A stretch of 64,000 nucleotides of DNA from Nematopogon swammerdamellus (lineage: Eukaryota; Arthropoda; Insecta; Lepidoptera; Adelidae): positions 17,195,791 through 17,259,790 of the forward strand of contig OX336344.1 in the NCBI GenBank assembly GCA_946902875.1. Direction: 5' to 3'. The translations under genes and the position numbers were made by a program. Numbering within the stretch: position 1 is the first letter of the stretch; the number at the start of each line of letters is the position of its first letter. The notes beneath the pieces are model-generated. The model was not told the origin of the DNA. It saw only the letters and a list, made by a program, of their open reading frames with translations, and ran no database searches. This document shows positions 8,402 to 39,403 of the stretch, piece after piece.

Positions 8402-11400
8402 TTTTTATTTTTTTTTTATTGAAAGCGCGACATATGGCGCCTAGCCACCCATAAGGTGTCTAACGACGCCCATGGACATTCGGTCGTATGCGGGGGTTGC
8501 GAATGCCATGCCGGCCTGACATGTGCCCATTCACGCCCCTCTTTAAGGACCCGAGACTGTACTTGGGGGGAAATATATGAGCAGGGAGAGCATTCCAGAG
8601 TTTACCGGTTCTGTAGAGGAATGATCTGCAGAATCGATTAGTACGCATCCGCGGTAAGTCCAGCGTATAGGGATGCAATCCCTGCCCAGTTCATGTGGTG
8701 CGGAGATGGAAAGGGGACGGCGGGATTGCGTTAAACAGCTCCTCCGAGTACTCCCCATGGAATAAGCGATAGAACACACTTAGAGAGCCGACATCCCTAC
8801 GGTGTTGCAGTGGTTTTAGATCGCGGGACACTGCGGGGTCACCCACTAGTCGCACGGCTCGACGCTGGATCGAGTCCAGAGGCGCAAGCTGGTATTTGGC
8901 AGAGCCATCCCACAGGTGCGAGCAGTACTCCAAGCAGGACCTGATCTGCGATTTATACAAAAGCAGCCTTTGGTCCGGCGTGAAGTACCGTCGCACCTTA
9001 TTGAGTACGCCCAGCTTTTTAGAAGCCAGCTTGGCCTTCCCCTCGATATGGCGACGAAAGTTCAAGTCGTGCGACAGTTCGACTCCGAGGACCCCGAGGT
9101 GTTCGCTTAATTTAAGCGACGTGCCTTGGAATGAAGGAGCCGGTGTGAACGCCGCTCTCTTCGCACTTAACGCGCAAACTTGTGTCTTGGAAGCGTTGAA
9201 CTCGACCAAATTGCTACGGCCCCATTCGGAAATAGAGCCGAGTGTGTGTTCGAGCTCAGACACAAGTCTTCGCCTCTTCTCATCCACAATATCCCGACTG
9301 GCTGAAGGGTGACTGGTGTAGGATCCGTGTGCCGTACTGTCATCCGCATAACAATGTATGTTGCCCAGAGACAGCATATCATTGATATGCAGAAGAAACA
9401 GCGTGGGTAACAACACAGATCCTTGTGGTACGCCGGCGTTCACTGACATGGCGTCCGACGAGCAACCGTCCACTAGGACCTGAATGCTACGCCCATGTAG
9501 GAAGTCGGCGACCCAGTCACAGAGGCCAGAAGGAAGTCCGTAAGCCGGCAATTTGCCCAAGAGCGACTTGTGCCAAAGCCGATCAAATGCCTTGGCAATA
9601 TCAAGGCCAATTGCCAAGTATTTTTCATTTCATTTTTCATTTATTCATTTCCATCTTAGGTACCATCGGTACACTTGAGTTCGTCACATTTTAGTTTACC
9701 AAATTTACAATTGAAACTGTCTGGGTCTAGCCATGGTAAGGGACTAATAATTAGCAATAATATAGGTACATAACTAAAAATTATAAGAATACAGAGAAAA
9801 AAAAACTGTTTTGTGCATGAAAGGCAATTAAAACTAGAGCTAAATTAAAATACTTCGCATCAATAGAATTGTTAAAGGTTAAAAATTCAATTATGTCAAT
9901 ATAAAAAAATATAAAATTAAAATAAAATTAAAATAAATTAAAATAAATTAAAATTCAAAATTAAAATAGGTAGCATCAATTCACCATGACCGTCAAGCGA
10001 TTCCCCCCAAAGGTGAGTGACGTACGCTAGGAGATCACCAGCAGATCGTTTTGGCCGGAAGCCGTATTGCCGATCGCTGATGAGGTCATTCGTCTCCAGG
10101 TACTTCATGAGCTGCGTATTGATAATGCGCTCCATCACCTTACAGAAAAAAGAGGTAATCGCTATAGGTCGGTAGTTTGACGGGTTTGAGCGGTCACCCT
10201 TTTTAGGGACCGCTTGCAAAAACGCAGATTTCCAGGCCGCCGGCACACGGCAATTGGAGTAGGAGAGACGGAATAGGCGCGTCAGCACTGGGGCCAGCTC
10301 GGGAGCACACCTTTTTAACACCAATGCAGGAATCCTATCCGGCCCACTCGCCTTCCTGACGTCTAGGGAGAAAAGTTCCGCCCGTACAGTCCGTTGTCGA
10401 AACTGCACTTCCGACATGGAGTTCTCACACCTAGGTATGGATGGGGGAGTGGCACCCCCATCGTCCAGGTTGGAGTTCCCCGCAAAGAGAGATACCAGTA
10501 AGTCGGCTTTCTTCTTTGCGGAGTGGACAAGGGAGCCTCCAGGACACTGCAGAGGTGGAAGAGAGGAGCGGCAGAAATTTGACTCGACATATTTAGCGAG
10601 AGACCAGAACTCACGGCTCCCAGTTGGGTGCTGGTTCAGTCTATCGCCGATTCTGCCGATGTGGTCAAATTTGGCCCTGGCAATAACCTTTTTGCAGGAT
10701 CTGGAGAGGCGGTTGTATTCCTTCTTCAGTTAGGATGCGTTCGGATCACGTCCGGCACGAGCGCGCGACCATGCCCGATAAGCTGCGCATTTAGCTGCGA
10801 CAGCATCAGCACAGTCGCGGCTGTACCATGGTTGGCTTTTACCACCGAGGTAGACAGAGGCGCTGCGAATAAACATTTCCATTGCCCCCAGAACCACCTC
10901 GGCAACGGTATTAGCGCATTGCGACGGATCGCCCGAACTGAAGCAGATCTCTCTCCAAGGGTAGGATGCGAAGTGTTCTCGCATCTCATCCCAATCTGCT
11001 GACGCGTAGTGCCAAATTCGACGCGTTCCTCCAGTACGGGACTGAGGAGGCGAAGATGGCACCGTGGACCACACTAAACAATGATCAGAGGAACCCAGCG
11101 GGGCTCTCACTGCGACCTTATATCCAGTGGGGTTCGTTGTCAGCAGAAGATCCAGCAGAGAGGGTTCATGACCGTCTATATCTGGCAGCCTGGTGGGCTG
11201 GTCTACCAGTTGAGACAGGTCATGCGTCAGGGCGAAGTCGTAGGCGGCTCTCCCCGCAAAGTCAGTTCTCCTGGAGCCTAGCCATGCCTCGTGATGGGCA
11301 TTGAAGTCTCCAAGAAGAACCAAATCCGCGGTAGGGAACCGCTCTTGGACTTTGTCTGCCGCTCCACTCAGGTACTCAAATAACCGAGCTGTCTCTGCAT

Positions 11401-11771
11401 CACCAGAGTGCGACCTGTACAGACAGGCGTACACCCGCGAGACCGTTCCCAGATCCTCGTGGACCCAAAGTACTGATAGCTCGGAGTCCTCAAGGCAGCG
11501 CAGGCGACGACAGCAAATATCTGCCCTGACAAACAAGCAAACCCCGGCTCGCGACCGGAAGGCTTCTTCCAGGGTGAAGCCGGGGTAGTGCAGGTCGATA
11601 TATTTGTGATTCCGTCAGGAAAAGCAAGGCCGGCTTCTTCGTCTCCAGGTGGTGATGGACGGCATTCAAATTGGTATGCAACCCCCGCACGTTGGTCGAG
11701 TCAACGCTAAATAGTGGTGTAAGGGTGTGCACCGCTGATTGAACCTTTTTTTCCTTTTTTTTCGCTGCCAT
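8402..11771 (-). mobile_element. Jockey-type LINE copy C, near-complete ORF2, split by an insertion
   Basis: Reading down the - strand: ORF2 start MAAKKKEKKVQSAVHTL (11771), endonuclease (VLLGDFNAHHEAW, SLLDLLLTTNPTGYK, SDHCLVW; 10730-11536), RT (VRAELFSLDVRKASGPDRIP; 9983-10417), then RT and C-terminal part 8460-9617 (CYADDSTAHGSY, SCLEYCSHLW). Frameshifts lie near 11560 and 10730. AT-rich DNA at 9618-9982 interrupts the RT. The 3' T-run is at 8398-8420. It is the longest copy in the window and the best reference for the family. Confidence 0.85.
9618..9982 (-). mobile_element. AT-rich insertion inside LINE copy C
   Basis: It breaks the sentence gccaattgccaag / attcac found intact in copy B (6660-6690). 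On the - strand it ends with aagatggaaatgaataaatg, an AATAAA-bearing LINE/SINE-like tail. Its other end is aaaattaaaataaa repeats. No coding frame is seen. Confidence 0.6.
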
Positions 11772-14398: not shown

Positions 14399-17300
14399 AT
14401 GTGGGTGCTTGAATTGGCGCTGGCGGTGGCCGCACTGCTAGCGCTGGGCTGGGTGCTTTCGGCGTGCGTATGTGGCTGCAGAAACAACCACCAGAAGTGA
14501 GTTTCAACCTTACCTACAGCCCAATGATCTTATACTAAGCCCGGGTATACTCCATTGTAAAAGACTAATTTTAGTGAAATATTTTTTTACCGGAGACTCA
14601 TAGTTTCGGAGAAAAAAAAAATAAACAAATTTTCCATACAAAAAAAAAATTTTTTTTAAATGACCAAAACGTTTATATTGAATAGAAATGTATGCAAAAA
14701 TGACTTGGGCCGCCTCAGCATTAGGTTAGGGTTAGTAGTCAGTACTATTTTATGTGTGCCTATTTCCAAAATGTGTAATATTGTAAAGCCATTTGAACTG
14801 CTATAAATAATGCCTCTTTGACAAAGCTTTAAGTTTAGTGGAAACGTTCATAAAAAAATTAAAAGTACTATTTTTGTATAAAAAGTTTACAAGCCTATTG
14901 GAGCTTACAAATTATCTCGCTCTTTATAATAATTAACCAAGTGTATTTCTTTCCCACTTCAAAAATTACCCATAAACCCAAGATATTTTGTTGTGGGGTG
15001 GGACCTGCTCCTACAAATGGCCTCTCAAAGTTTTTCCCAATTTTTATGAACAAAAATGGTACACAGTAAAGTCATACCGTAATTTCACCGAACATCCACG
15101 GGCATCGTCAGCACCTGCGGCTGGGTTGAACGTTGCCATGGGGATGCGATGGAAAGTGTCACTTGAAAAAGTTATGGTGAGACTTGCTCTAGCTCCAGTG
15201 TTGACAGTAAATGAATTTCAACAGAAGTGAGTTGGTCGGAACGGCCGGTGTGGTCAAGCTCCGCTTTGACGAGGAAGTTCCGTCTCCCGCGCCGACCACG
15301 CCCGCGTCTGTCAAGCGGTTCGTTGCTCCACAGCATGCCCTAATCAAGTAGACGATAGTTTAGTAATCCTTAACAAAATAACACAAAAAGCATTTCAGCG
15401 ACCTATCGTAGCGCTTCGAACATTCCCCACGACGAAGACCTGCCCTTGTCTTTTTCATATTGATGGAGACGGATCTTCACCAGGTCTTCGCCCGTGCATT
15501 TGTAGCTCTCATGAGGGATGTGAGAGAGGCAACGCGGGTGGTCGTTGGAAACGCACCTCTAGTAACCTTAATATAAAGTCTCAATTGATCAATTGGCGGT
15601 TGTAGTTTTCTTCAGACTGGTGCGAGATTGCTGCCGTTTGCAAATATATATTTTGCTATGAAAAATTGCACCGATATAAAATAATGCATGGTTTTTCACT
15701 GCAAAATATTAGCAGCAGATGCAAATATCACACTAGTCTGAAAGATAACTAAGGTTTTTATTTTATTTATTCTTATTTATTCTATGTTCTAACAGCCTGT
15801 AGAAGACGTTGAGTTGGTTAAAATTATTCAAACAACATTTGGTTTCCCCTAACTCATGTTAACAAAATGTTTAAACCATCTTTTTAATTGTCTGTAGCAT
15901 AGGTAACTAACATCTATTATTACTTAACAAAGTGTTTACATTAATCTTTTGATTAACTATAAAAATGAAAAAAAGACAGGTAGCTGAAAATATGTTATCC
16001 AAAAATAGTACAACTATTTCGATAAAGATAACTATTTATCCTTTCAGTTCGGGCATATCTTTTCTAATATCTGAGATTAGAAACGGCCAATGAACACACA
16101 AGATTTTCTAGGTAGCGGCATAATTACTTAATCATTTATCTTATTTAGCATTGAGATCGATTTTACAAAGAACAATCACGGAAATTGTAAATTACATCAT
16201 TGGAATTGAAATAAAGTTATGACTCATTGTGTCATCTTGACAAATTTGTGACTCATTGTGACAAAATTGTTAATGGATGTATCCAAGTAATATTTTTTTT
16301 ATTGCTATTGTTTACCCGAGTATTTGGTAGTGATTATTAGATATTCGTTTATATTACTGCTGATTGTGAGGAGATGCGGTTTCTGTTGGTGAGTTATTGC
16401 CACAGGTGCTTGCTTTTAGTCATGTATTTGTCAGCCTCGGTAACTCAGTGGTGCGATCGGTTGACTGTCGTTCGTGATTATAAGCACACCTGGGCGCAGT
16501 CAGAACTTGGATGGGTGACAGCTTGACCTTTGTAGGCTGACAGTGGTCCAGATTCCACTTAAAACCGTAGTTCCCTTCCCTTTTTACCTTACTAGGTGGC
16601 CTGTCAGGCCTGTAGGTTTAGCCTAGCGTTATTTTTAAACTTTTTTAATGCATTGAAAATAATGAATGAATTATGTCGTAATCGAAATTTGCAATAATAG
16701 CTAAAGGTAAATGTAAACTTCCACCAAAAACATTGATCAAATATTTCATTTCTTTGTCAAACAGTCATTGATCAAACATTTGTTTACAAACAATTTTTAC
16801 TAATCTTCATCATATAAGCGAACGAAGATGCTGCATTTTAGTACAGGCGTGACATGTAACAAAGAGATAAACTTACAATATAAGGTAGGCAGGTTACAGG
16901 ACCATAGTGTGACTCAGTTTGAACATGTCATCCATCACTCAATAGGGAAAATATGTAGGAAATAGGGAAAGTATATTTTAGCTTGTTGCACTCAGCCAAC
17001 TGGATTAAGTAGATGTAGATATATATATCGAATTGAGAGTTAAATTAATGTTGGGCGCTACGAGGCCACAGACAGTTACACTCACACACAGACAGACGGA
17101 GGCTTCAAACTTATAAAACCCTTTCTCTTGAGAGGGTTTAAAATAAATAAATTAACTGATTTAACAGCTTCTTTATCACAATAAAATAATTGATGTGAAT
17201 TGATTTCAATATATGTTTCGTTCTGAAAAACTTTAGGACTAAACACGGAATACAAAAAAAAAAAAAAATCACATTTTGTCCCTAATTGTGAAAATAGCAT

Positions 17301-20300
17301 ACATACAGAATTTTGGTTCCAGGGTACTTACCTAGATATTTACTAACAAACAAAATAACGGTACTGGGTTTTTATTAATTAATTTTTCTCCAGTGAATTG
17401 GGCTGGGTATACAGAGGGGCAACGCAGCTAGTGTATTGGGTACTGGATGGGGGAGTCGGCGGAGATGGATGAAATTTATTTTATATACTTAATATTAACT
17501 TTAGTTCAATTATAAAATGTGAAATACTTAGAATACATTTAAAATATTATTTCATTGTGTCAAAAGAGAGAAAAAATGTTTTTTTAATCCGGTTATCGTC
17601 CCCCCGAGACGTCCGTACGTTTATGTACATATAAAATTTATTGCAACATCACAACACTTATCCCACATTATTGACAGTACCTATTAATTGTTTGAATTAA
17701 TCACATTAATTCTCTTTATTGGCTCTAAATACAGGTTATCACCAATTTAATGTCAATTTCTAATTATAATCATAATTTATTGTGTGCAAAATTTACATTG
17801 ACGTCGATCTCCGGATCAGATAACTGTAATTAGTTTGATAACAAATGTTATATCAATATTTTAAATATACATGGACTTTTATGGACAATATTTTAATTAT
17901 ATAAGATAAGTTGAATTGAGTTCACATTATATATTATACCTTGTTTAATGAGACATTATAGGCAGAGCTGTTAAGGGCTGAAAAGTTTATACATTTTGAA
18001 CATATTAACATAAATATGCTTTTGTATTAGACAGTGGTCGCGCAAATCATCAAGACCAGTATAATAAAATGTACTCTGTAATCAAGGTAAAAGATAGACT
18101 GGAATTAATCACACTACTAGTGATGAGTCTGGCTTTGAGCATGATAAGCCTGCTTTTTGAGCGATATGGTTTCTTAGTGTCTTTGGTGTTCTCGTTGTGC
18201 AGGTATTTATATTACAGGTGTGAGGGTACACTTTTTCTGTTAATTTTTTTTTAATGTATGGACTGAAGTAGATCAAACAATTAACTGTATGGTGTTGTTT
18301 GACAGAGCGTCAACGCAGAACAGTCAGAGAAGCTTGCCGGAGATTCCTCAGCCGGTGGGACGGCACGACAGCGGGGATACGGCTTCAGATCTGATATACG
18401 CCACTGTCAATATAGATGAAGGTTTGATACTTGTTTTATCTTTATTTTTTTGGGACATGACATTGGTGACTGCATCTACACTACACCTAATTACAGACTT
18501 GTCAGCCAGAGTCAGTCAGAGCGTGTCCAGTGCTAGACATACGCTTCTCCAATATTCTACCAGTCCCTCGGCGGTACGGAACCACAGCTTTCTCCCGACG
18601 TACTTGATCTCGTCGTCCCACCGGGCAGGTGGTCTTCACGCACTCCGTTTTCCTGTTCACGGCCGTGGCTCTTTGGCTGACGTGCCCGGTCCACTGCCAC
18701 TTGAGCTTAGCCACCCGGTGACCAATATCGACCGCTTTGGTGCATCAGCGGATTGCCTCTTTACGCACCATATCACGTAGCGATATTCCCAGCATAACTC
18801 TCCTTTGCTTGCTGGGCACTTTTAACCTTTGGACAACAGCGACTGTTAGAGCCTTGCCGCTGTTATGAGAAGGAGGCACCTCTGACATAGCCGCATATAC
18901 CAGATTACATAAAAAAACAACATTGGTAAACACTTCAGTAATTATATTTATTTATTTATTTTTAAAACTGAAAGCTGACAGTTGGTGCGTGTGTCCAATT
19001 TTTTTTTCATTTATGAGTGCACTTGTATTTTTTTAAGTATTTTTGTTTTGTTTATTTAATTTTTTTGTCTAATTTGTTTTTTAAAGAATTAATTGCTATG
19101 TAACATGTTATATATGATGACTTACTCGCTCGAATCGGTGGCGCGTAAATCTGTTTTTTAAACCAATCTTCCTAACAGTACAACATGAAACTACTAGATG
19201 GCGCTATGCTACAAGTGGCGTCACTTCCTTAACGCATTTCCACTTCATTCACACAAATTAGTGCTCATACCGAGTGCTAAGATGTTACACGTTAATAAAT
19301 ATGTCAACCCTGAAATTAATTTGTTAAAGGTGCAACGAAAACGGAGCCGGTGCTCTCTACAAGCCGGGATCACTCCTACGAACATGCGTACGCCAAAGTA
19401 CAGAAAGAAAATCACATGTAAGGCTAACATATTTGATGCATGTTATTTAAAAATCTCTTAAGCAGGGTTGCCAGATGTCCGATTTGGACCGGACAGTCCA
19501 GCTTTTGAGGCTTGTGTCCGGTCTCCAAAATAACTAAAAACCGAACATTTTTAATACTAATCTAGCTAGGTCGACAGATGACCTAAAAAAGGTAGCCGGG
19601 AGTGGATGGATGAGAGAGCGGAAGACCGCGTGTGGTAACGTGCCTTGGGAGAGGCCTATGTCCAGCAGTGGACCGATACAGGCTGATGATGATGAATACT
19701 AATCTTACCGTCTTATTTGAATTTGCAATCAGTTCGATCAATTCAAACCTTTTATTTATTACTCTATCTCCCGTTAATTTTCAACAGTAAAGGTTATGAA
19801 ACATTTTGTACTTTGCTTGTAAAAAATCAAAGTGTCTCCCATTCATTTTTTTTAACTAAACATTTGTACCTGAAACAACCAAACGTCCTTTGATGAAAAA
19901 TGTCTGGTTTTTTCAACTGAACCATCTTGTAACCCTGCTCTTAAGATACAGCATCAATATGATCGTTGCGAAGGTATAACTACTGTGTGTTAATTTCCAG
20001 GAAAACGGAATATACTATTCTGTGCTGTATTTTAAATTTAGAACAATTTATTTAATAGGTTAACCTATCTGTGGTACCATTACGTATTTTACCAAAATAC
20101 ACATTCCAGATCTATTGCTCTCGCAAAGACGAATATCTTAGCTTGGATGCTCTATGATGAATATAATATAAATGTTTTTTATTTGTTCTTAACTACTTTG
20201 CTATGAAATAATCAAAGTTGTTGCATGTAATGTTGCATGTGTTATGTGAAATGGAGAAAAATAAATGTTTTCACTTTCTTTCTTTTTGCTTATTTCTTTC

Positions 20301-23300
20301 TAACCTGCTTTCCTTCTTATTTTCTTTCCTTTTTAAGGCTCCGTATCCATACTGAAACCTATTAGCCTACGCCATCTATCTATCTGTCTGTCCGTCTGTC
20401 CGTCCGAGGGCTGTATCTTTTGAACCGTAATAGGTGGTTGAAATTTTCACAGAATTTGTGTTGTTATAGTGGATATCCTATAATTAAAAAAGCATAAAGT
20501 AAAAAAATTAAGGGTCCCCATACAAGAAACATGTTTTTTCAATAGTTTTTTTGTTTGTTTTTGCTCTATCGTAGAAACCGTACCACATACAAGCGTTAAA
20601 CTTGATGTGATTATAGTGCAAAACTCTAAAATAAAACAACCAATAATAAAAACTGGAAAAATTACTTGGTGGCACGGAACCCTCAGTCTGCGCGAGTCCG
20701 ACTCGCACTGGCCGATTTTTTCCTTCTTTTAGGTCATTCTTTAGGTCTTTCTATACAAAATGTTATATCACAATAAATATAACCCCCAATCTCTCACGAG
20801 TAGACCATAACGAAACTTAACAATCGAATTTCATCAGAATTCGACTCAGTACATGTGATGCCAGAATAACCTCATGAATGTGTAGGTATATTTTATCCAG
20901 GCAAGCAGATGTGCCGGCGGAGCAGGCTGGCGGCGCCGATGTTGCCATTATAGAACCGGAGCCCCCGTCGCAGGCTGCCCTAGGTGAGTGCCCCCCATAT
21001 TATTTATTAAAACACAGCATTGTTAGAAAATTATCCAGCGGCTTCAAAATCAAATCAAATCAAAATATGTTTATTGCCTTTTAAAATTTTGCAAAAAGTA
21101 CAACTTAACACCGTAGCCGTTCTCCTACAGCCAACCTTTGGGTTATCATATGAGTGTGGAGTGGCAGAGAACAGATAAGAATGATGTAGGTAGACAATTT
21201 CAACAAATTATACAACATAAATATAAATAAATAGATAAAAATATATAAATACATACAAATATACAAGAATAAAATATACAGAGAAAACGAACATTAGACT
21301 CTAATCCATAAATAGCGAGTAATTTATTGGTATTGGTATTCTGGTATTGGTAAATGGTATTCTTAAAAGCCTAGCCCACGCACCGTGGTTCATAACCACC
21401 ATGGAAATACGCCAGCTTCTCGAAATGCCGACCGTCTGCGAGGAATTAGCTTCTGTCACAAAAACCTATAAACAAAGGCTCATGCATGAAACACCCCGAC
21501 CAGCTGGCAGGGTAGCTTACTACACTCCTGTATGAGAAAGGGTTCAAGAGACGAGACATCCTGGAGTTGTGACGAGAAGTCCAATATCCCAGCTATATCG
21601 AGGTGTCTTCGATGGAGGGTGCACTCATCCAGTCTTGACCACACCACACACCTTCTTATAAACTGATCACCAGGGATCGGAATAGGTATTATATAAATAC
21701 TAAATGTTGCCTAAAAGACATAATATCGAGTGGTTAAATAAAACCACCTCTTCCGGGAAATCCGGAATTTGAAAAATATTTCCTGGGAGTGATATACTTA
21801 CTAACTTTTGACGCTTGTAACATGCTGTAATGTATGAATTACCTTATTTTAAAACCAAAAAAATATTTTGAAAAAGAAAGTATTGGAATTCTTAATAAGG
21901 TATTCGTACTAACTGTGATTTAGGATAGGGATATTGACAATTCTTTTGATGCTATTATACCTTGTAATTGTAATTTTATTGTATTTATTGTCAGTCAGTC
22001 AGTCAGTCAGCGTGTAAGCGTCCACTGCTGGACATACGCCTCTCCAATTTTCCTCCAGTCCTCCCGGCTTTCAGCGGTACGGAACCACTGCTTTCCGCCG
22101 ACGTACTTGATATCGTCGTCCCACCTGGCGGGTGGTCTTCCCACACTCCGTTTTCCTGTCCACGGCCGCCAGTGTAGGACACGGTTACTCCAGCGGTCGT
22201 CGTCTCTTCGGCTGACGTGCCCAGCCCATTGCCACATGAGCTTAGCCACCCGGTATCCAATATCGACTACTTTGGTGCGTCGGCGGATTGCCTCGTTACG
22301 CACCATATCACGTAGCGTTATTCCCAGCATGGCTCGCTCCATTGCTCGCTGGGCAACTTTCAACCTTTGGACAACACCGACCGTCAGCGTCCACGTTTCA
22401 CACCCGTACGTCATAACTGGGAGGACACACTGGTCATATATACGGGTTTTTAAATTTTGCGGAAGATCAGACCTCAGGGCGAATTTTAACTTTCCGAAGA
22501 CATCCCAACCCAGTTGAATTCGTCTCTCGACCTCCTTTAGCAGACCTTGTCTACCAAGCCGCAGAATTTGACCGATTTATTGTATCTTAAAATATTTCAT
22601 TGGCAAGTTTATTGACGCTACATTAAATAATTAACGCTAAATTAAGTAGATAGTATTAGGTAAGTGTAGGTAGTAGTAGTCTATAAGCAAATTATAGCTT
22701 AAATTGTTTTTGTCTTTTATCTGGTTCTGTACAGCCCTTGTCATTGTTTTTATTGTTTTTAATTGTGTTTCACTGTTACATTTCACACTATAGTTGCCAT
22801 TCGAAAGAACGAATTCAAGTGCAAAATTTATTTGCCTACGAATGATAATAAAAAAACCTAAACCTAAACTATATCACTACCAGGAAATATTTTTCTAATT
22901 CCGGAATTCCCAGAAGAGGTGGTTCTCGTCAACATTAGCTATTTATACTCTACCTATTCTAATCCCTGCTGATCATCGCAGATAGTTAATATAAAAAATA
23001 AAATTGTTGGAAAATGAAATATGATCTCTTTAGTTAGTCACGCCAAAATTAGAAAAAAACCCCGCCATGGCTTAGGCATTTATCCTCCCAACGTTAGCCC
23101 GTCACTGACCACACGCATTATTATGCAGGATTTACATTTGATAACAACATGTTAGAATTGTATGCAACCATTAATCATAATATATTATGTAATTTCCTTG
23201 TGTAAGCTGGAACTGGTAGAAACAAAAGATTATGAGGACAAAAGAAAGGTAACAATGGAGAAATACATAAAAATGTGTTTGTATAAAACCATGTTGTAAA

Positions 23301-26300
23301 TTTATTTTAACATTACTGATGGTAACATTGCGCGATCCTGGCTCGGAATCGGAAGAATCATCCATTCCGAGCCAAGATCATCGCTCGGAAGATTTGATTC
23401 CCGCCAACATGCACCAATCAGTTTTTTATCAGCCGACAAGGTTACTGGATTATATAGCCAGCTATCCAAAGGGAAGTCGCCTACCTTATCGCAGGTGATA
23501 TTGACTGGTCGGAGTATGTGCTTTGATGCCTCTTGACCTGGATTATATAAAAAAAAAATGGTTTTTATGTTAACTGACATAATTAATACGAAATATGGTT
23601 GCAGAATCTGTGGTGATATCGGCGAGTGTTGCCATCAGCGGCCAACTGCCATCGAGCCAGGAGTTGCCGTACATCACTCCACCGTCGCCCCACCCGCACC
23701 CCCCGCCGCCGCCGCCCACGCACCCCGCCCCCGCCGCCGACATGCACCCCGCGGCACACCCACACCTGCCCCAGCCGCAGCACTTTAGCGGCGACTCCAC
23801 CGATTCTACTAGTGAGTTGAACTTTTGTTATTTCTCAGTTTTGTGAAAATAGATCAGCTTATAAGGGTCGTTCCGCCATTTCGTTCAAATTGCATTCCCG
23901 CGCAATAAAAGCGTGTGAAAATGTATGTTTTTTAAAATAATTTTATTGAAATATATAGGTTTAGATGAAAGGAAAAAGTAGTATTTAACGAATCAGACAT
24001 TTGTCCATTCAATTAAATAAAAAAAAATAAAAACCTTCAAAATTCTCATTCCTATCCTCTTCCAAACGATGGATCAGTATTTAGTATAATTTTTTTTTTT
24101 AGTTCCTTCAAGTAAAATGAGTATATTAATAAACCCAACTATAGTGTAACTAATAACGCATGTTTCTTTGGGATTCATTTATTTTTAGAGCCATTATATC
24201 ATAAAAAGAATTAATATTTCATTTTTGTCCGTGGAAAAACGTCATTACCTTCCGCAGAAGTGGTATTACAAATTAGACAGAGTGTGACCCGACTTTAGCC
24301 TTCGCTCTACGCTCCGCACGTCGAACGCCCCTCATTGTGTCCCTGGATCTTGACAGGAGAGGACGAGCATCGCTGGGGAAGAAAATACTCACGATCTTCG
24401 TGCTCATCAACTACTTTGTCACCGTCCAGGCATCATTACCTTCCGGCTTTTTTTAACATAAGTACAAGATATAAAAATTTCATTTAAATCTTAATGAATC
24501 AAATTTTAGTCAGAATATTCGTTAATTAATATAATAAATTTGTAATATCAGTAATAAGGCAGGAATTGAAGAAATACATCAAAATTTCATTACCCTCCTT
24601 TTCATTACCCTCCTTTACCCTCAAAATGTTTGCCGGACGGTAATGAAGGGGTTCGGATGGTAATGAAATGTTTACTTGATTTTCCTTCCCTCCTACCTAA
24701 CTGGGTGGTAGGTTATATCCCGCCCGTGTTGGTACCACCGCAGCACTGAATGAAACGTTGGTCCAAACGGCTATGTAAACGTCCGAATGTCCATGGTCAT
24801 CGTTGGACACCTTATGAATGGCTTGGCGCCATATGTCGGGCTTTAAATAAAGCAAAATATTTCGTGTTTTCACTCGAGTTCAGTGTAGCCGACACGATGA
24901 AAGGAAAGTACTATCAGGGCACCTAGTTCACCAAGGTGTTATGGGCTGACATCACGGATGTTGTAGATGATGTAAATATGTCAGTGTTCACAAAAAAAAT
25001 TGTGTGCACGTAGTAAGTAGTACATAAGTAATAAAAATCCAATAAAACTGGACTTTTAATTCTATTTGGCACGTAAAGTATCTACATAACGTATAATGGA
25101 GTACGGGGTTTAACCCGACCGGGTCGGCACCAACGCACTGACTGAAGTTCGGTCGAAATGCTATAAAAATTGTTCATGTTTTTGACCAGTTAAGTGTAGC
25201 CGGTTCAATTCAGTGATATGTAAGAGTATAGTTGTTTCCACTCAGTGCATAGTGTGTGTGTTCACTAAGTTACTGTATTTTAATTGCGTAGGTTGGACTT
25301 CAATACAGCGCCGAGTCTAGTGAAATATTCACTAGATTCAGCATAGGTTGTGGCCAGTCCTATTTTTTTCTTCTTCTCTTATTAACCGACGAAAGCAAAA
25401 AGGAGTAGGTTCTCAATTCGAAGCTCATATATTTTTATTTTTTTATTGGATAGGGTATACGTCAAAGTTAGTCCCATGTTTATTTGAAAAAAATAAATAA
25501 AATAAAAGCTTTAACAAAAAATTTTACCGACGAAAAACTGAAAAGCGAAAAATCCAATTTTGGCGGGTAATAAACCTTCCTAGTCTTACTAACAGTCTCA
25601 AAATTAGTCACTTAAGACTATTAAGACTAAAAGGGTTTATTACCCGCCGAAATAATATTTTTCGTTTTTCAGTTTTTTGCAGGTTGAATTTTTTGTTAAA
25701 AAGTTTTTTACAATGTATTTTTGTTTTGTTGCTGGTTGTAATGAAGGAACCGGAACCCTCTTGAAGGACCCGAGACTGTACTTAGGGGGGAATATATGGG
25801 CAGGAAAAGCGTTCCAGAGTTTACCGGTTCTGTAGAGGAATGATCTGCAGAATCGATTGGTACGCATCCGCGGTAAGTCCAGCGTGTAGGGATGCAATCC
25901 CTGCCCAGTGCGCGTGGTGCGAAGGTTTTTTTTTTTTTTTTTTTTTTATGGAACCTGACACGGTTGGCTACATCACCTACAACATCCGTGATGTCAGCCC
26001 ATAACACAGGGTGAACTAGGTGCCATGTCAGTGCTTCCCTTCATTTCATGTCGGCTACACTAAACTGGACGGAAAACACGAACTATTTACATAGCCGTTT
26101 CGACCGACGTTTCGTTCAGTGCGGTGGTAACAACCCGGCCGGGATAAACCCTACCACCTAGTAAGGTAAGAAGGGAAGGGACCTACAGTTTAACGTGGAA
26201 TCCGAACCACGGTCAGCCTCCAACGGTCGAGCGGTCACCCATCCAATCCTGACCGCGCTCAGCGTTGCTTAATAACAGTTGACTAACCAACCGCGCCACT

Positions 26301-29300
26301 GAGCTACCGAGGCTGACGAATTTTCTTATCCCTTAGTCGACTTTTACGACATGCGACGGGGAGAGATGCAGTGGGGCTATTCTTTTTAAGTACCGACCCC
26401 ACACGGTACAAAGGTGGAAAGGGGATTTGTTATTTCAGTTAAAACTTTTTACACTATGAATTATAAATTACTTAGCTAAAATTTTGATGTTAATAGTGTC
26501 GAACTTTTAATAATCGTTAACATTATTACTACCATCAGCTAAATAATGATATCTTTATCATTATCATAATAATAATAATATAATAAAGCAAATTTCATTA
26601 AGACATACTAGCATTCTTCATTACCATCCAACCGCAAAAATTACCATCCAGGTGTTTTTCATTACCATCCACACCTTCATTACCTTCCATCAATTTTCTC
26701 CAAAACTAAAATTGTACATAGATGCCTCTCTTATGTTACTACATCTAATAAGTACAGGAACACATATATATATAAATATATTTCAGAAAATAAAAAAATA
26801 AAAATTCCGCCGAAACATGCAAATTTGAACGAAATGGCGGAACGACCCATAAACGTACAACATTTCAAAATCTTTCTCTTTTGTCAGCCTCGGTAGCTCA
26901 GTGGTGCGATCGGTCGACTGTAGTTCGTGATCTTAAGAACACATGGGCGCAGTCAGAATTTGGATGGGTGATCGTTCGACCGTTGGTGGCTGACCGTGGT
27001 TTAGATTATATGTAAAACTGTAGGTCCCTTCCCTTCTCACCTTACTAGGTGATAGGGTTTAACTCACCCGGGTTGATTCCACCGTACCGAATGAAAGATC
27101 GGTCGAAGCGGCTATGTAAATAGTTCGTGTTTTTCCGTCAAGTTCAGTGTAGCAGGTACGACCAAAGGGATGCATTGACACGGCACCCAGTTCACCAAGG
27201 TGTTAGGGACTGACATCACGAACGTTGTAGGTGATGTAACAACCCGACCAACCGTGTGTTAGTAAAAGGAAAAATGTGTTAGCTGCATTGATGGACAATT
27301 TTGAAAGAACTTAAATTTTAACTTAAAAAAATATTTTTTTAATCATTTCAGAGGGCTACACCAGTATAAGCGTTCGAGAACCCCTGAGCAACATAAGAGC
27401 CATATTAACACAGAACAAAACACAACAGCATTACGCAACAGTATCGGACGATTCAGGTAATAACTCGTTACAATCAATAAATAACCAGTTATTGCAGACA
27501 TTGAAACAGCAGTGCACGACCCTGTGAACTAGACCAGGCCGGCTGTAACAATGCTGAAACAATTTACTCACTCACATACACAGGGTGTATGAGGACATGC
27601 CATGAACTTTCACCAGGCCGTTCCCCAGATCACTTGGAGTATAAAATCTGGATAGCATTTCTCTCTGACATTTTTTTTTCACACAAAAGTAAAAAAAAAT
27701 TGTAGGGTTTTTTTATACCGTGAATCTGTACGCAGCTTAGCCTCCGGCCTCGCCCTTAGTCCGTTACTGTTTTCGTGAAAGTACATTGTTAATCTAAAGC
27801 TCGGGCTCGCCCTTTGTGACTTCCTGTTTTCGTGAAAGTATATCGTTAACCTAAACTGCATCTTCGGCTTCCTCGCGCTGCCGCCTCAAATATAAATGGT
27901 TTTTTGTGTTTTTAGTCAGTAGTTTGTTGTGTTTGTGTATAACTTCGAAATATTATCTAATGACTAATCAGGGAAACATGTAATTGGCCATACTTTAGGC
28001 ATAAAAAAAAATAAGTGTATTTATATTGTGAATGGCTGTATATTTTCTAATATAAATAAATAAATAAATAAAGACAAATCCCATAGGAGCATAAAAAAAA
28101 ATTATTTATAACACTTATTAAGTAAATGTGTTGTTATTGGAGGTATTATCCATTTGCGAGTGTGTGAAATCGAAAAAACTTAACCTCACCATAGTTGTGG
28201 AGTTGTAATGCATGAAATGTTCAACTCACAATTTGGAATCAAAACAAAAGTCAGTGCAGTGTAAGGTATACCTACATATCATCATCATCATCATCATCAT
28301 CAGCCTGTATCGGTCCACTGCTGGACATAGGCCTCTCCCAAGGCACGCCACCACACGCGGTGCTTGCTATAGGTGTCCATATATTTTTTTCTGAAAAAAA
28401 AATACATTTCACGGAAATTAGCTTGACACCTGAGGGGTTTTATTTTTATGCATTATTTGTGATTGTCACTTTATCCAACACCAAAAAAACAAACAACAAC
28501 ATTGATTATTTAAGATGAAATGTATGCGGCGATCGACGACCCAAACGGCAGCGGCGGCGGCGGTTCGGACACGTACGCGCAGATAGCGCAGGAGCCGCGC
28601 CGCACGCCCGAGCCGCGCCACTCGCAGGAGAGGGAGCCCGCGCCGCGCGCCGCATTCCTGCCTAGCGAGGCTGGCTCCAGGTTTGTCTTACATTGCCCAG
28701 TTGGTAGGCTTGCCCCTTACTAGTTGGTAGGTTTCCATCATACTGGATGAAAGATTTTTTTTTCCTTTATAGAGACCGCATGTGTCTCGGATGTGTTCTT
28801 CTCTAGTCCAGTATAGCCAGTTATACGAAGGGAAGTCTCTGGTACCTTCTCGGAGTTGATACTGGCTGGTCAGAGCATGTGCTTTGGTCCCTCTGACTCA
28901 ACGAGCCCACCCATACCAGATTATATTAAAAAAACCGGCCAAGTGCGAGTCGAACTCGCGCACCGAGGGTTCCGTATCGCCATGTCATGTTCAGCGCTGC
29001 TTCGTACTGTTTTCGGTAGATGGCGCGCATACACTTTTTAGTTACTTGTATGGGGACCCCTGTGAATTTTTAACTTTTCTTATTTGTTGTTATATCAGCC
29101 ATAATAACACATATTCTGTGAAAATTTCAACGGGCTACCTATTACGGTTCAAGAGATACAGCCCCCGGACAGACTGACAGATAGGCGGCGTAGGCTTACT
29201 AATAGGGTCCCGTACGACAGATACGGAACCCTAAAAACCTAAATATGAATTTGCTGTTTTGCATACACCCTTCCACAAGTCAGACGAGCAGCCAGTATCG

Positions 29301-32300
29301 ACGCGCAATCAAAACCTTTAAATGATTATGAAGTTTCAAATTCTGATTTGCTCAATTTCAGGAGGAGCGCCCCACCGGAAGCAAGCGGAGCTATCGCTTC
29401 TAATCATTCTAGACAAGGTACATTAAACTTTATGTTTTCTTATTTTTTGTCCACCATGCCATTGCCATGCCTTTACTGTAAGCAGGTATTGTGTCAGTAT
29501 AAGACTGCACGTTCAATCCTCCTCTGCTAACAGCTCCTTCACTGTCGGACCGCTTCACAGCTTGTTGTCGAGTTCCAGGATCAAACTTGAGAATTCATTA
29601 CTGATGTGCATTGCACAATTTCTATTATACACGAAATGACACCGCCGGAAGTGACGTATGACCGAAATTCACAGCTGTCAGAATATTTTTTTTATTGAAG
29701 GCGGAAGTTTCGTAACGTTTGATATCGAAGGCAAGGATTTTTTACCATAAATTGACCATTCCATCTGGTTCTACTAAGAACAATTTCACATTAATGTATA
29801 TAATCGATTCCGTCTACTTTAGAAGAGAATATAAAAGAATGTACTTTATTGCTTTCCAATACAAAATTGTACAAAAGGCGGACTTTGGCGGATTACCTAA
29901 GGCAATCTTTAGTGTCTCGTAGTAAAAGGTCCTATAAGTGACGTCATCGTAAATAACTGAATCGGATATTCGTTTGGTCATCCATGTGTTCTCATGGTGC
30001 AGTGGTATAATTTACATTTTAGACGGTAAATATTCTCAAAACAATAAGTCACAGGACAAAAGTTATTGAAGTTCAGATGTAGAATGTATTTCTTGTTTCT
30101 TTTCATGTACTGTTCTTCTTTCCATTGTAACTAAACTTACACTGTTACTAAAGATTTAGTAAAGATTTTCTATTCTATTCCATTCTGAATCGGATTCCTT
30201 GAACTAGTTGGAGTGTTCTGTACAGTCTGGAGTGTACTGTTCTGTATCTGCGCTCCAGTCTGACAATACCGGTCATTCACCCCTTCCTCTCAGCACGCAC
30301 ACATGCACAGAGAGGCGTGTGTATCATAACATAGTACGAACGGTCAGGCGGCCGCCCGGCTACCACAATAAGCTAGCGACAGTAATTTCGCTCGTTACGC
30401 AGAACATGGGAAGTATCGCTTCCGCAAATACGAGTACGTTGGTAGGAAGGGGTGAATGACCGGTATTGTCAGACTGGAGCGCAGATACTATACAACTAGT
30501 TCAAGGAATCCAATTTCTTCAATTAATCACACCATCTATTAGGGTAATATAATTAATGTATGTTGATTGGTTCAGCGTCGGCGTCGAGCTGCAGCAACAG
30601 TGTGGGCACGCTGGGCTCGCCCAAGCCGGAGAAGCGGCAGGCGAACTCGCCCCTGCCGCCGCCGCCGGCCGCGCCCGCCGCACCCGACGCCAAGCCCGAG
30701 CAGCGCAGGAAGCACGAGGGCCCGCTCGCCCACGCCGGCATCAGCAGGCAGCAGAGGATCTCCAGCACCGGTGAGCGACTCAGTCACAGTTCAGTGCGGC
30801 CAGACAAGAACGCGAGGAAACACACTGGCGCGAGAGCTAATCATTGCAGTATTTGTTTATCTACACTAATATTCATCGGGTCATTTAGATGAAAGTTTTA
30901 TGGGGAATGCGTGATTTTTTAATGTTAATAATTTTAATATTATGTTATGTAATATTGTCATATTAAAACATTGTCTAATTATGTAATATTTATAAAATAG
31001 ATATTATAAAGAGGTAAAGTTTGTAAGTTTGGATGTAGGAGGTAATCTCTGAAAATACTCATCCGATTTTAAAATTTATTTGACCAATATTTAAAATGAA
31101 CCTTCAGGATGGACATAGGCTATGCGAGGGAAGCCGCGGGCAAAAGCTAGCAAAAGCCAAAACTGAATTCAAATATTTAGGATATCAGATTTAAAAATAA
31201 GTGATATTTTGACATTATACTTTTATGACCACAGGCGATCTCCACTTCAGCCACGACAAACATCGAAGAAGCCTCAACGAGAAACATCAACGAAACAACA
31301 GCTGCGTCAGTTCTTCCGACTTCTATGGCTGCAACTATCCAGTGGAGAAACATCGATTCAGCTCCGGGGACCTCATCCGACCTCTAGTCGCCAAAGAACT
31401 CAACTTCGACATCGACAAGCCGCCCGAACCCACCGGCCTCAACGACAACTTGTACAACTCCATCGAGGGACCGAGCTGCAGCGACTATTCCTCAGCAGAA
31501 GCCAACGTCGGCCTCGCGTCCGACAGAGTCACAGAGAGCCCCTCCCGCAACGTCGAGGAAATGTACGCTAAGGTCATGAAGAAAACCAAATCCAAGCTAC
31601 ACCCGGAAGAGTTGAAGACGGCCAGAAAGTTGACGTACGCAAACGAGAACGCGATCAACGAAGGCGGCGCAGACCGCAATCCCCTCGGCTCCAGATTCGC
31701 AAACGACGACCCTGGTTATGAAACGATAGATCGGAAACGATCCGTCAATCATGGCTACGAAACTATAACGGAGAAAGTGCGGAAGATTTCGCAAAATCAA
31801 GACCCGGGTTATGAGACCGTGCGGGATATCGAAAAAATGAGCTCAAACGCTAATTTCAGCAATAATAACTTGCTGAATAAACTGAATCACATCACTCTCG
31901 ACAGCGGCCCAAACAGCATCCTCGGCAGCGATCCAGGTTACGAGCACATTTCGAAAACTAACAACTGTGCCTCCGACTCAGATCCGAACTACGAGGTGCT
32001 GAGAAACGAACCTCCCACCCCTCCCTACGCAACAATCGCTCCAAACTATAACATGCAACCCACCTATTCAGTCATTAACAAGACGCGCTCTGCGAATAAT
32101 AACGATGATGCGATCGTCGAGCCAAATTATGAATCTATGCCGCACGACGCCATTTATACCACCGGCAGCGAATCGGACCCAAATTACGAGTCTGTACGGC
32201 CCAAGGACCCAAATTACGAGTCCGTTAATTCCAAAGATCCCAACTACGAGTCTCTTCGGTTGAAGAATAATGACCCCAACTATGAATCTGTACGATCGAA

Positions 32301-32586
32301 GGATCGATTCGAGCCCGGTCGTTCTAAACATCCAAACTATGAATCGATGAAGTCAAACGACCCAAATTACGAATTGGTGCGGCCTCATGACCCGAACTAT
32401 GAAAGCGTGAAATACGATATGAACAAGGAACCTCCGTACGCCAGTGTGGCAGGGGACTCTGAAGGAGTGGCTAAAGACCTACAAAGGTCCGATTCCGCAG
32501 CAGGATATGAAAGGATCAAGCCCATGGTAAACAGAAGCAGTATTAACGGGGAGGGTGGCATCGTTGATGATTATTTTCAGGTGTAG
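14399..32586 (+). CDS. PAG/LAT-like transmembrane adaptor with a tyrosine-motif array (10 exons, 821 aa)
   Basis: Predicted membrane-anchored scaffold for tyrosine-kinase signalling. Exons, with every junction phase consistent: 14399-14496, 18306-18421, 19330-19417, 20901-20983, 23605-23811, 27352-27456, 28515-28680, 29362-29417, 30576-30770, 31235-32586 (2466 nt). Residues 2-22 form one hydrophobic segment with almost no extracellular part, followed by CVCGC (residues 23-27), a likely palmitoylation site. The rest is cytoplasmic and low-complexity with no enzymatic domain. It has YATV (Y64, Y225), YAKV (Y92, Y482), YTSI (Y200), YAAI (Y236), YAQI (Y253), then thirteen YExI/V/L/M motifs, then YASV, YERI and a C-terminal YFQV. 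LPEIPQP and a His/Pro-rich stretch are candidate SH3 ligands. This topology is that of vertebrate transmembrane adaptors (PAG/Cbp, LAT, NTAL). Orthology is not shown, and the similarity may be only architectural. I do not recognise a named insect gene. Confidence 0.85.
15230..15590. other. Unassigned GC-rich, coding-like patch in adaptor intron 1
   Basis: The + strand 15238-15350 is open and ends TAG (VKLRFDEEVPSP...). The - strand from about 15565 to 15408 is open and ends TAG (ESYKCTGEDLVKIRLHQYEK). Both look more protein-like than the surroundings. I recognise neither. They may be remnants of a retrocopy or TE exon. Confidence 0.3.
16430..16610 (+). mobile_element. tRNA/5S-type SINE, 5' half
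   Basis: Starts gtcagcctcggtaactcagt (tRNA-like A box), then the 5S-like cagtcagaacttggatggg, and ends near ttaccttactaggtgg. The 3' half is missing. Confidence 0.8.
18480..18935 (-). mobile_element. RTE-type LINE C-terminal fragment
   Basis: - strand frames with LTVAVVQRLKV, RRVMLGISLRDMVRKEAIR and KLKWQWTGHVSQR. This is the usual C-terminus of RTE-like ORF2, broken by frameshifts. It begins about 60 bp after adaptor exon 2, which is why a + frame reads through the exon into it. Confidence 0.75.
19575..19695 (+). mobile_element. RTE-type LINE 3' end
   Basis: + strand gacctaaaaaaggtagccgg, gaggcctatgtccagcagtg and a tgatgatgatgaa tail. It is the last about 35 codons plus the short tail of an RTE element. 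Adaptor intron 3. Confidence 0.7.
20320..20725 (-). repeat. Dispersed repeat ending cggccagtgcgagtcgga
   Basis: Shares its text with 28928-29236 in opposite orientation: ggcacggaaccctcagt..., gtccgtctgtccgtccgagg and cctattagcctacgcc. Other pieces are at 35340-35415, 58375-58490 and 62085-62175. Noncoding, probably non-autonomous. Confidence 0.65.
21045..21330 (-). mobile_element. LINE 3' fragment with (aaatc)n tail
   Basis: Begins aaaatcaaatcaaatcaaaa, then tgtttattgcc (AATAAA on the - strand). Inserted in adaptor intron 4, 60 bp after the donor. Confidence 0.5.
21341..21645 (+). mobile_element. Jockey-family LINE C-terminal fragment
   Basis: The + frame ILKSLAHAPWFITTMEIRQL... CEELASVTKTYKQRLMHE resembles the post-RT region of Jockey elements (APWY...I..DL..PTV.EEI...Y..RL..HPN). 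It belongs to a different family from copies A-C. Confidence 0.65.
21655..22985. mobile_element. 1.3-kb segment flanked by about 130-bp inverted repeats
   Basis: Left gatcaccagggatcggaata ... aaatatttcctgggagtgata pairs with the inverted right copy (22870-22985: tatcactaccaggaaatatt ... tctaatccctgc). A related single end lies at 46772-46890. It looks like a DNA transposon or MITE, with an RTE fragment (21995-22565) nested inside. Confidence 0.6.
21995..22565 (-). mobile_element. RTE-type LINE C-terminal fragment, 135-aa open frame
   Basis: The - frame from 22414 to 22007 reads YGCETWTLTVGVVQRL, LRDMVRNEAIRRRTKVVDI, LMWQWAGHVSRRDDDRW, GRPPARWDDDIKYVGG and GEAYVQQWTLTR stop. This is the intact C-terminus of an RTE-clade ORF2, with a (cagt)n tail at 21993-22009. 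Confidence 0.85.
23425..23552 (+). mobile_element. tRNA-headed SINE (family 2), 3' end
   Basis: The tail part ggtgatattgactggtcgga ... ggattatataaaaaaaa matches the 3' end of the 40150-40553 copy. It ends about 50 bp before adaptor exon 5. Confidence 0.65.
23605..23811 (+). CDS. Adaptor exon 5: proline/histidine-rich linker
   Basis: This exon encodes residues 130-197, preceded by a split Glu codon. The middle reads PPSPHPHPPPPPPTHPAPA, followed by HPAAHPHLPQPQH. The acceptor is ttgcag at 23599-23604 and the donor is gtgagt at 23812. The segment is likely disordered and offers PxxP sites for SH3 domains. The opposite strand is also open here, but only because of the GC-rich, low-complexity composition. 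Confidence 0.8.
24655..25015 (+). mobile_element. tRNA/5S-type SINE 3' half, interrupted
   Basis: The sentence gcggctatgtaaa ... tcgtgttt is broken at about 24782-24856 by a piece of the Jockey LINE tail (- strand: gcccgacatatggcgccaag). The remainder follows with ggtgttatgggctgacatca. Confidence 0.65.
25508..25706. repeat. Palindromic element, arms about 80 bp
   Basis: The left arm (25511-25595: taacaaaaaattttaccgac ... ggcgggtaataaa) pairs with the right arm (25625-25703) across a 30-bp centre. MITE-like and noncoding. Confidence 0.7.
25754..25925 (-). mobile_element. Jockey-type LINE C-terminal fragment (copy D)
   Basis: The - frame LHPYTLDLPRMRTNRFCRSF, YRTGKLWNAFPAHIFPPKYS is the same C-terminus as in copies B and C. 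The poly-A side of a SINE is inserted at its 5' edge. Confidence 0.75.
25926..26318 (-). mobile_element. tRNA/5S-type SINE, full copy
   Basis: Full element on the - strand. The head at 26318 reads gtcagcctcggtagctcagt (tRNA A-box-like). It is followed by a segment matching 5S rRNA positions of the internal promoter (caacgctgagcgcggtcagg, ttggatgggtgaccgctcg), then a family-specific body and a poly-A tail (T-run 25926-25947). It is the reference copy for the family, with about twelve pieces in the window. Confidence 0.85.
26883..27265 (+). mobile_element. tRNA/5S-type SINE, full copy
   Basis: Starts gtcagcctcggtagctcagt, with the 5S-like segment gcgcagtcagaatttggatg. It ends at the conserved aaccgtgt, but its tail is degraded. 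It faces the 25926 copy and could form a hairpin with it in the adaptor pre-mRNA. Confidence 0.85.
27895..28400 (+). repeat. Second copy of the 47285-47800 repeat
   Basis: Shared text includes tgtttttagtcagtagtttg, atccatttgcgagtgtgtga, gttcaactcacaatttgga and gctataggtgtccatatatt. It is interrupted at 28275-28375 by an RTE 3' end. Confidence 0.65.
28275..28375 (-). mobile_element. RTE-type LINE 3' end with (atc)n
   Basis: (atc)n at 28279-28301, then agcctgtatcggtccactgc, the - strand end of an RTE ORF2. Adaptor intron 6. Confidence 0.7.
28690..28927 (+). mobile_element. tRNA-headed SINE (family 2), 3' part
   Basis: Matches the 40150 copy: gccccttactagttggtagg, ttctctagtccagtatagcc and ctggctggtcagagcatgtg, ending in attatattaaaaaaa. 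It begins 10 bp after adaptor exon 7. Confidence 0.65.
28928..29236 (+). repeat. Dispersed repeat starting cggccaagtgcgagtcgaa
   Basis: + strand copy of the repeat at 20320-20725, directly after the SINE tail. It includes gggttccgtatcg and ends cagatacggaaccctaaaaa. Non-coding. Confidence 0.65.
30190..30513. mobile_element. About 320-bp element with long inverted ends
   Basis: ggattccttgaactagtt and ctgcgctccagtctgacaat at the left recur inverted at 30460-30513. The left side has a 33-bp extra stretch. It is MITE-like and lies about 60 bp before adaptor exon 9. Confidence 0.75.
31050..31155 (+). repeat. Degenerate dispersed repeat ending gaagccgcgggcaaaagct
   Basis: Shares the 'gccgcgggca(c/a)a(g)ct' ending with the repeats at 47335, 48783 and 63170. 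It lies just before adaptor exon 10. Confidence 0.45.
31235..32586 (+). CDS. Adaptor exon 10: DPNYES(V/L/M) tyrosine array and C-terminus
   Basis: This terminal exon encodes residues 373-821. It has YNSI (Y445) and YAKV (Y482), then thirteen motifs of the form [DEH]P[NG]YExΦ or HGYETI between 31708 and 32410 (tyrosines 533, 546, 564, 607, 624, 670, 689, 699, 709, 721, 740, 750, 760). YATI, YSVI, YASV, YERI and YFQV are scattered among and after them. The acceptor is acag at 31231-31234. Acidic residues before Tyr and a hydrophobic residue at +3 are typical of Src-family kinase substrates and SH2 ligands. The spacing is tight (about 10 residues) from Y689 to Y760, suggesting repeat expansion. 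Confidence 0.85.
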
Positions 32587-38787: not shown

Positions 38788-39403
38788 CCTCAGTTGCCGG
38801 CACTATTCAATTCACAAAGCAACCCTTTCTCGCTCGCAACTGGATTCCAACAAATTCCATCCAACCGCACAGTAGTGACGTTCTGAACTTCTGACACTTG
38901 CTTGAATTGAATAATCTATGGTTCTTTTTTATGTCAACAAATGGAATGGTTAGTTCTTTATGGTTCAGGTTTGCTTCATCTCTTTCTTATATTTGAGAAT
39001 AGACCGAGATGGCTCATGCGATGTCCAACTGGTAAGTTGAGGCGTGCGTGGCGCGTGAGCGTGATTGAGGTGATGCAAAGTGGGTGATTATGATGGTGAC
39101 GTGTAAATAAATAAGAGTTTAGTTTTATTGTGGCAACATTATTTAGAAATCAGCTGCTGTCATTGAACAACAGATTAGTGATTTTATCCATGCACACAAG
39201 TACTGATGGGTCGATCCCGGGATTGAATCTTTATGGGCGGGATTTTATCATAAAAACCAGGATTTAATCCTATTCTAGGACCAAATGAGGATTTTATGTT
39301 TTAAGGTTAAGTATGTGAAGTTGTTCTGTAATATGAGCGAAATTTTATCATAAAGTCCAGGATTTATTCCTATTTTAAGATCGAAAGGATTTTATGTTTT
39401 TAT

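Follow-up and report, generated by a model that had tools for sequence, protein, structure and literature searches.

Transmembrane tyrosine adaptors (TRAPs) are known mainly from vertebrate immune cells. Their layout, as set out in PMC4861716, combines an ectodomain of a few residues and one transmembrane segment with a long cytoplasmic tail carrying several tyrosine motifs, and these tyrosines become phosphorylated and bind SH2 proteins. The same source gives juxtamembrane palmitoylation for LAT, NTAL and PAG, describes it as unproven for GAPT, and reports that the C-terminus of PAG1 binds a PDZ domain of EBP50 (PMC4861716).

Here we describe a gene in a 64,000-nucleotide stretch of DNA from the lepidopteran Nematopogon swammerdamellus, the whole of which we call the window. 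Its product is likely to be an insect single-pass membrane phosphotyrosine scaffold that works in the manner of a vertebrate transmembrane adaptor. A preliminary description of the locus, made from the letters alone, had stated that no insect counterpart of these adaptors was described, and this is consistent with the open-licence PubMed Central literature, where titles and the starts of abstracts yielded no description of the insect family by architecture or by gene identifiers. A transmembrane tyrosine scaffold of many insect orders has apparently gone undescribed. A strongly conserved insect protein of TRAP design, present in Drosophila among others, would be a candidate membrane platform for insect Src signalling, and fly genetics could then test directly by what means Csk and Src of insects reach the membrane.

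Gene model and isoforms

The gene occupies positions 14399-32586 of the plus strand. Ten exons with GT-AG junctions join in phase to give 2466 nt, encoding 821 aa and a stop codon with no internal stop; start, end, exon number and length of this rebuilt gene all agree with the ten phase-consistent exons and 821 residues originally proposed. That ten-exon model lacked a 93-nt in-phase exon at 15225-15317 (exon 1b), whose addition brings the gene to at least 11 coding exons and, when it is included in frame, gives a second isoform of 852 aa. The features are listed below with the basis of each in brackets. Counts out of 225 refer to the different proteins gathered from both homolog searches, isoforms and fragments counted; those out of 38 refer to hand-picked diverse insect members, which were used for site conservation and Pfam.

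14399-14496, plus strand: exon 1, with start codon, short ectodomain, transmembrane helix, CVCGC and basic RNNHQK (exon join; homolog alignment)
14465-14479, plus strand: CVCGC juxtamembrane cysteines, palmitoylation-like (directly after the helix; at least two Cys in 185/186 homologs)
15225-15317, plus strand: exon 1b, alternative cassette of 93 nt, encoding SELVGTAGVVKLRFDEEVPSPAPTTPASVKR (lepidopteran homologs)
18306-18421, plus strand: exon 2, with the SH3 ligand RSLPEIP and YATV (exon join; homolog alignment)
18328-18348, plus strand: RSLPEIP, fitting a class I SH3 ligand (RSLP in 201/225 homologs)
19330-19417, plus strand: exon 3, with the EHAYAKV site (YxxPhi in 38/38 insects)
20901-20983, plus strand: exon 4, poorly conserved linker (3-9/29 residues identical)
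23605-23811, plus strand: exon 5, with SQELPYITPP (a YxxP site) and a proline-rich stretch (YMTP/YITP in 38/38)
27352-27456, plus strand: exon 6, with GYTSISVREPLSNI and the first half of the ITAM-like pair (GYTSISVREPL in 202/225 homologs)
27429-27456 and 28515-28534, plus strand: HYATVSDDSDEMYAAI, ITAM-like tyrosine pair across the exon 6/7 junction (pattern in 209/225 homologs)
28515-28680, plus strand: exon 7, with EMYAAI and SDTYAQI (exon join; homolog alignment)
29362-29417, plus strand: exon 8, linker RRSAPPEASGAIASNHSRQ (exon join; homolog alignment)
30576-30770, plus strand: exon 9, with SPKPEKRQANSPLPPPP (SPKPEKRxANSPLP in 217/225 homologs)
31235-32586, plus strand: exon 10, with EMYAKVMKK, the DPGYE/DPNYES array, C-terminus and stop (exon join; homolog alignment)
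31711-32409, plus strand: [DE]P[NG]YE tyrosine-site array (exon join; site conservation count)
32569-32583, plus strand: C-terminal DYFQV, class II-like PDZ ligand (exact in 109/225 homologs)

In an exon-by-exon comparison with eight lepidopteran homologs all exons align, exon 4 being the weakest. Evidence from transcripts is indirect: P0010, without the cassette, and P0015, with it, both combine a membrane segment with a DYFQV end, and their contigs measure 2933 nt and 3978 nt, respectively, far less than the 18-kb locus of the window, so that these are probably spliced RNA.

Many lepidopteran homologs carry about 31 additional residues between CVCGC...QK and ASTQNSQRSLPEIP, and the window encodes their counterpart in exon 1b. 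Identity over the cassette is 25-30 of 32 residues in seven of the eight compared lepidopteran homologs, while the eighth skips it. Among the 186 homologs whose membrane segment precedes RSLP, a simple pattern finds the cassette in 120 and misses it in the other 66, and both forms occur among the fetched proteins of Pieris (P0028/P0030), Microplitis (P0048/P0089) and Nasonia (P0051/P0102). Related cassettes (GLxGMV and similar) were seen in homologs of several insect orders. Use of the exon would alter the spacing from the membrane to the SH3 site.

A chance chain of exons is ruled out by the homologs and the exon phases. The reading as transposon coding was likewise dropped, because homologs in many insect orders keep an identical order of blocks and the reverse-transcriptase pieces that were seen all precede the gene. 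Neither Rfam at gathering scores nor ARAGORN reported a feature in the window. Other coding pieces seen in it are:

5525-7060, 8691-9629, 9938-10729 and 10730-11614, minus strand: pieces of reverse transcriptase and endonuclease that lie upstream of the gene and probably belong to non-LTR retroelements
37219-38802, minus strand: open frame of 527 codons in one piece, with PRKCSH domains and an EF hand as in glucosidase II beta subunit, which it matches; it may be an intronless gene or a retrocopy
58960-59415, plus strand: open reading frame with a partial thioredoxin domain

Homologs across insect orders

A search with the 821-aa product at E ≤ 1e-3 returned 424 homologs, of which the best 120 were examined, and a profile built from five dipteran sequences returned 503 matches, of which again the best 120 were examined. 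Among the matches listed, all those with a named organism come from insects, and the orders represented are Lepidoptera, Trichoptera, Hymenoptera, Coleoptera, Diptera, Orthoptera, Blattodea, Thysanoptera and Hemiptera, together with a stick insect; the Diptera listed include many Drosophila as well as mosquitoes. The top lepidopteran matches span 98-100% of the query with identities of 52-62%, and others cover 55-57% by best local alignment. Annotation of the homologs is mostly uncharacterized or hypothetical, with conflicting automatic names elsewhere (mucin, serine-rich adhesin for platelets, transcription factor mef2A, serine/threonine kinase), and no D. melanogaster gene name was found for the insect family. 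Variation in length was seen within exon 9, where inserts rich in His, Ala, Ser and Thr, of variable length (32-52 residues), follow residue 384 of window protein X1 in P0014, P0015 and P0024, and 17-residue inserts stand at the same place in P0005 and P0023.

Membrane segment and predicted fold

The RSLP motif, found in 201 of the 225 homologs, served as the anchor for counting membrane segments, the 24 homologs that lack it being left out. A hydrophobic segment precedes RSLP in 186 of the 201, at least two cysteines stand at its inner end in 185 of these 186, and a second hydrophobic segment after RSLP occurs in none of the 186. The remaining 15 RSLP-bearing homologs begin inside or after the membrane exon or have a different start; we take them as truncated models, though the family may include a soluble isoform. 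In the window protein CVCGC follows directly after the helix, and a glutamate is found at residue 5. The N-terminal membrane helix, near-absent ectodomain and inner cysteines of the preliminary description are thus conserved in the family, and the check that it had named as decisive against it, a look for homologs without membrane segment and cysteines, did not refute it in the RSLP-bearing set.

An AlphaFold2 model of the Bombyx homolog, computed from 37 sequences, contains one long helix at residues 2-26 (pLDDT 93, 96 and 78 by block) and one five-residue helix besides. The model has a pLDDT below 50 at 656 of 737 residues and a mean of 43, and the tail of this homolog is predicted to be disordered. 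In the window protein the tail is about 790 residues long. Comparison of the fold with the PDB gave 0 matches, an uninformative result that is to be expected from a model with a mean pLDDT of 43, and sequence searches of the PDB gave either nothing or four weak PARP matches at E > 1.

To the TRAP criteria we add the lack of a catalytic or folded domain. No Pfam match of the window protein passes a family cutoff, the single weak one having an E of 0.26, and the 38 insect members give only weak, scattered matches to 15 families (best E 0.0078), so that the absence of a catalytic domain noted at the outset holds, in keeping with a tail mostly below pLDDT 50 in the Bombyx homolog. Sequence and prediction together demonstrate an architecture of short ectodomain, one predicted helix, inner cysteines, long tyrosine-rich tail and PDZ-type end. 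At the level of sequence, what defines a TRAP is found in the insect family.

Tyrosine sites and short motifs

The 852-aa product contains 26 YxxPhi motifs, whereas 5000 composition shuffles average 5.9 and reach 17 at most; the 821-aa product likewise contains 26. This bears out the estimate of about 26 made beforehand, and the SH3 ligand put forward with it is found as the class I ligand RSLPEIP, both features being conserved. Eight YxxPhi sites, at X1 positions 95, 123, 231, 256, 267, 284, 655 and 791, are present in all 38 insects, as is YMTP/YITP at 182, while YAKV at 513 is present in 36 of 38. The DPNYES repeats of exon 10 are partly rare or unaligned: position 781 aligns in 0/38, and the tyrosines at 740 and 771 are found in 4/38 and 3/38, respectively.

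RxLPxIP is the class I SH3-ligand consensus, and RSLPDIP or RSLPEIP appears in most alignment rows. At the C-terminus, DYFQV is the commonest end among the homologs, and 189 of the 225 end in hydrophobic-x-hydrophobic, which is the rule for class II PDZ ligands. Candidate Csk sites (YAKV, YAQV and YAQI) are conserved; the Csk-like pattern, widened to accept L at +3, finds three sites in the window protein against a shuffle mean of 0.29 and maximum of 4 (5000 shuffles). Short SH2, SH3 and PDZ motifs are permissive.

YxxPhi doubles as an endocytic sorting signal, and the many sites could instead be AP-2 signals of a trafficking protein, a reading we regard as very unlikely. The motif does agree with the mu2 consensus, and the protein appears to cross the membrane once; AP-2 sorting, however, can be served by one or two signals, and conservation extends beyond its needs to DPNYES, YMTPP, SDDSDE, RSLPDIP and the C-terminus.

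Tyrosine pairs raise another alternative. The 852-aa product has 10 ITAM-like pairs against a mean of 0.22 and a maximum of 5 in 5000 shuffles, and the pair YATV-x7-YAAI, with its acidic spacer, recurs in 209 of the 225 homologs. These counts would suit a receptor-associated subunit whose ITAM recruits Shark, a kinase of the Syk type, instead of a Src/Csk scaffold. An ITAM receptor chain is expected to pair with its receptor through an acidic residue within the membrane helix. Of 186 homologs, only 2 have one among the 15 residues that precede the inner cysteines and 49 have one among the preceding 21, which places it mostly towards the outer end of the helix. The more than 20 other YxxPhi sites of the window protein would moreover be superfluous in an ITAM chain, and we consider this assignment quite improbable.

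Sites of the LAT type, YxN, occur once in the window protein (YANE), with the tyrosine kept in 0/38 homologs, and no YxN column is common to more than 8 of the 38. The preliminary description held that vertebrate TRAP adaptors have exactly this layout; the layout is indeed shared with them and conserved, but 'exactly' is too strong, the sites being YxxPhi and not the YxN Grb2 type of LAT.

Proposed function

For the TRAP-like scaffold that we favour, the following course can be proposed, in which phosphorylation and the partners in insects are what we infer. The inner cysteines would be palmitoylated. RSLPDIP fits the class I SH3 consensus, so that a Src-family kinase (in the fly, Src42A or Src64B) could dock there by its SH3 domain, beside the membrane, and phosphorylate tail tyrosines. 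The phosphotyrosines would then attract SH2 proteins. Csk is plausible at YA[KQ][VIL], as YAKV, YAQV and YAQI fit its SH2 preference; Crk is plausible at YMTP, a motif suited to it; and a kinase with tandem SH2 domains, for instance Shark, is plausible at YATVSDDSDEMYAAI, a paired site being suited to such an enzyme. The C-terminal FQV is of a kind that a PDZ domain would accept, and a PDZ protein bound there would tie the tail to the cortex.

Relation to vertebrate PAG1/Cbp

If the insect family were a true ortholog of PAG1/Cbp, a PAG-type anchor for Csk and Src would predate vertebrates. Vertebrate PAG1 proteins were fetched with a PAG1 query, and 16 of the best 120 of 383 matches, the 120 that were listed, were made into a profile, which was compared by hhalign with that of the 38 insects. 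The profiles match with a probability of 84% (P 7.1e-6) over 41 columns, aligning RSLPDIP...SELYATV with RELPRIP...CLYETV. The score of 53.6 compares with 23.8 for reversed PAG1 and, over 60 column shuffles, with a mean of 16.9 and a highest value of 26.5. Weaker colinear pieces, joining the membrane helices and MYAKV to MYSSV, have probabilities below 2% each, and a PDZ-type ligand ends both PAG1 and the insect protein.

Against orthology, the 84% match rests on a single block of short motifs, RxLPxIP plus LYxTV. Scrambling the RELPRIP block (four runs) brought the match down to 36% and moved it to the juxtamembrane segment; with three single PAG1 sequences the best match likewise moves to the membrane/juxtamembrane segment, at 19-45%, and six half-samples gave 42-87%, one of them dropping to the juxtamembrane segment. 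Human LAT reaches 23% against the insect profile, on the membrane segment. An earlier 26-row insect alignment compared with human PAG1 gave 36% by hhalign and 7.4 bits by HMMER, on the membrane segment and the part that follows. Global alignment to PAG1 fails, further local pieces staying below 5% probability. For the 38 members no PAG, LAT, LAT2 or LIME1 Pfam model was reported at E ≤ 10, in a search whose HMMER filters drop most matches above about 0.1. Even the PDZ ends differ in class, the PAG1 profile ending in DITRL (-TRL) and the insect proteins most often in DYFQV. The shared block could also have arisen by convergence, if an SH3 ligand for Src and a tyrosine site of the Src type are required in both families.

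We therefore treat orthology to vertebrate PAG1 as suggestive but unproven by the sequence comparison, and as a true ortholog the insect family is an unlikely candidate. An equally doubtful extension is that one ancestral bilaterian adaptor gave rise to both PAG1/Cbp and the insect family, with a Src-phosphorylated SH2 scaffold in existence before adaptive immunity and the insect copy serving as the main Src/Csk platform. Passages of PMC5876402, which deals with Src in a single-celled relative of animals, make no mention of Cbp, Csk-binding or adaptors, the sole match to 'pag' being PAGE. Among the Pfam results, weak matches to Cadherin_C_2 were seen in PAG1 P0226 (E 0.0095, over the membrane segment) and in 3 of 38 insect homologs (best E 0.1).

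Comparison with known adaptors

Comparisons with LAT, NTAL and LIME1 used human sequences, which Pfam recognised. Membership of the insect family in the PAG, LAT or ITAM-receptor families is either unproven or at odds with what was found. Like the insect protein, LAT (PF15234) and NTAL/LAT2 (PF15703) have a membrane segment and juxtamembrane cysteines, whereas the insect family differs from them in having no conserved YxN Grb2 sites and no Pfam match, with hhalign probabilities of 23% for LAT and 2% for NTAL. LIME1 (PF15332) resembles it in layout and in its YARV, YSRV and YESI-type sites, but reaches just 4% by hhalign. Draper and other insect ITAM receptors share an ITAM-like tyrosine pair with the insect protein, which, unlike them, has no extracellular receptor domain.

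PAG1/Cbp (PF15347) resembles the insect protein in its short ectodomain, one helix and inner cysteines (CSSC in PAG1), in an RxLPxIP SH3 ligand followed by LYxTV, in several YxxPhi-type sites and in a PDZ-type C-terminus, although profile similarity is limited to one motif block and the membrane segment. In contrast to PAG1/Cbp, the window protein has a tail about twice as long, DPNYES arrays, an ITAM-like pair, a cassette exon and a class II-like PDZ end.
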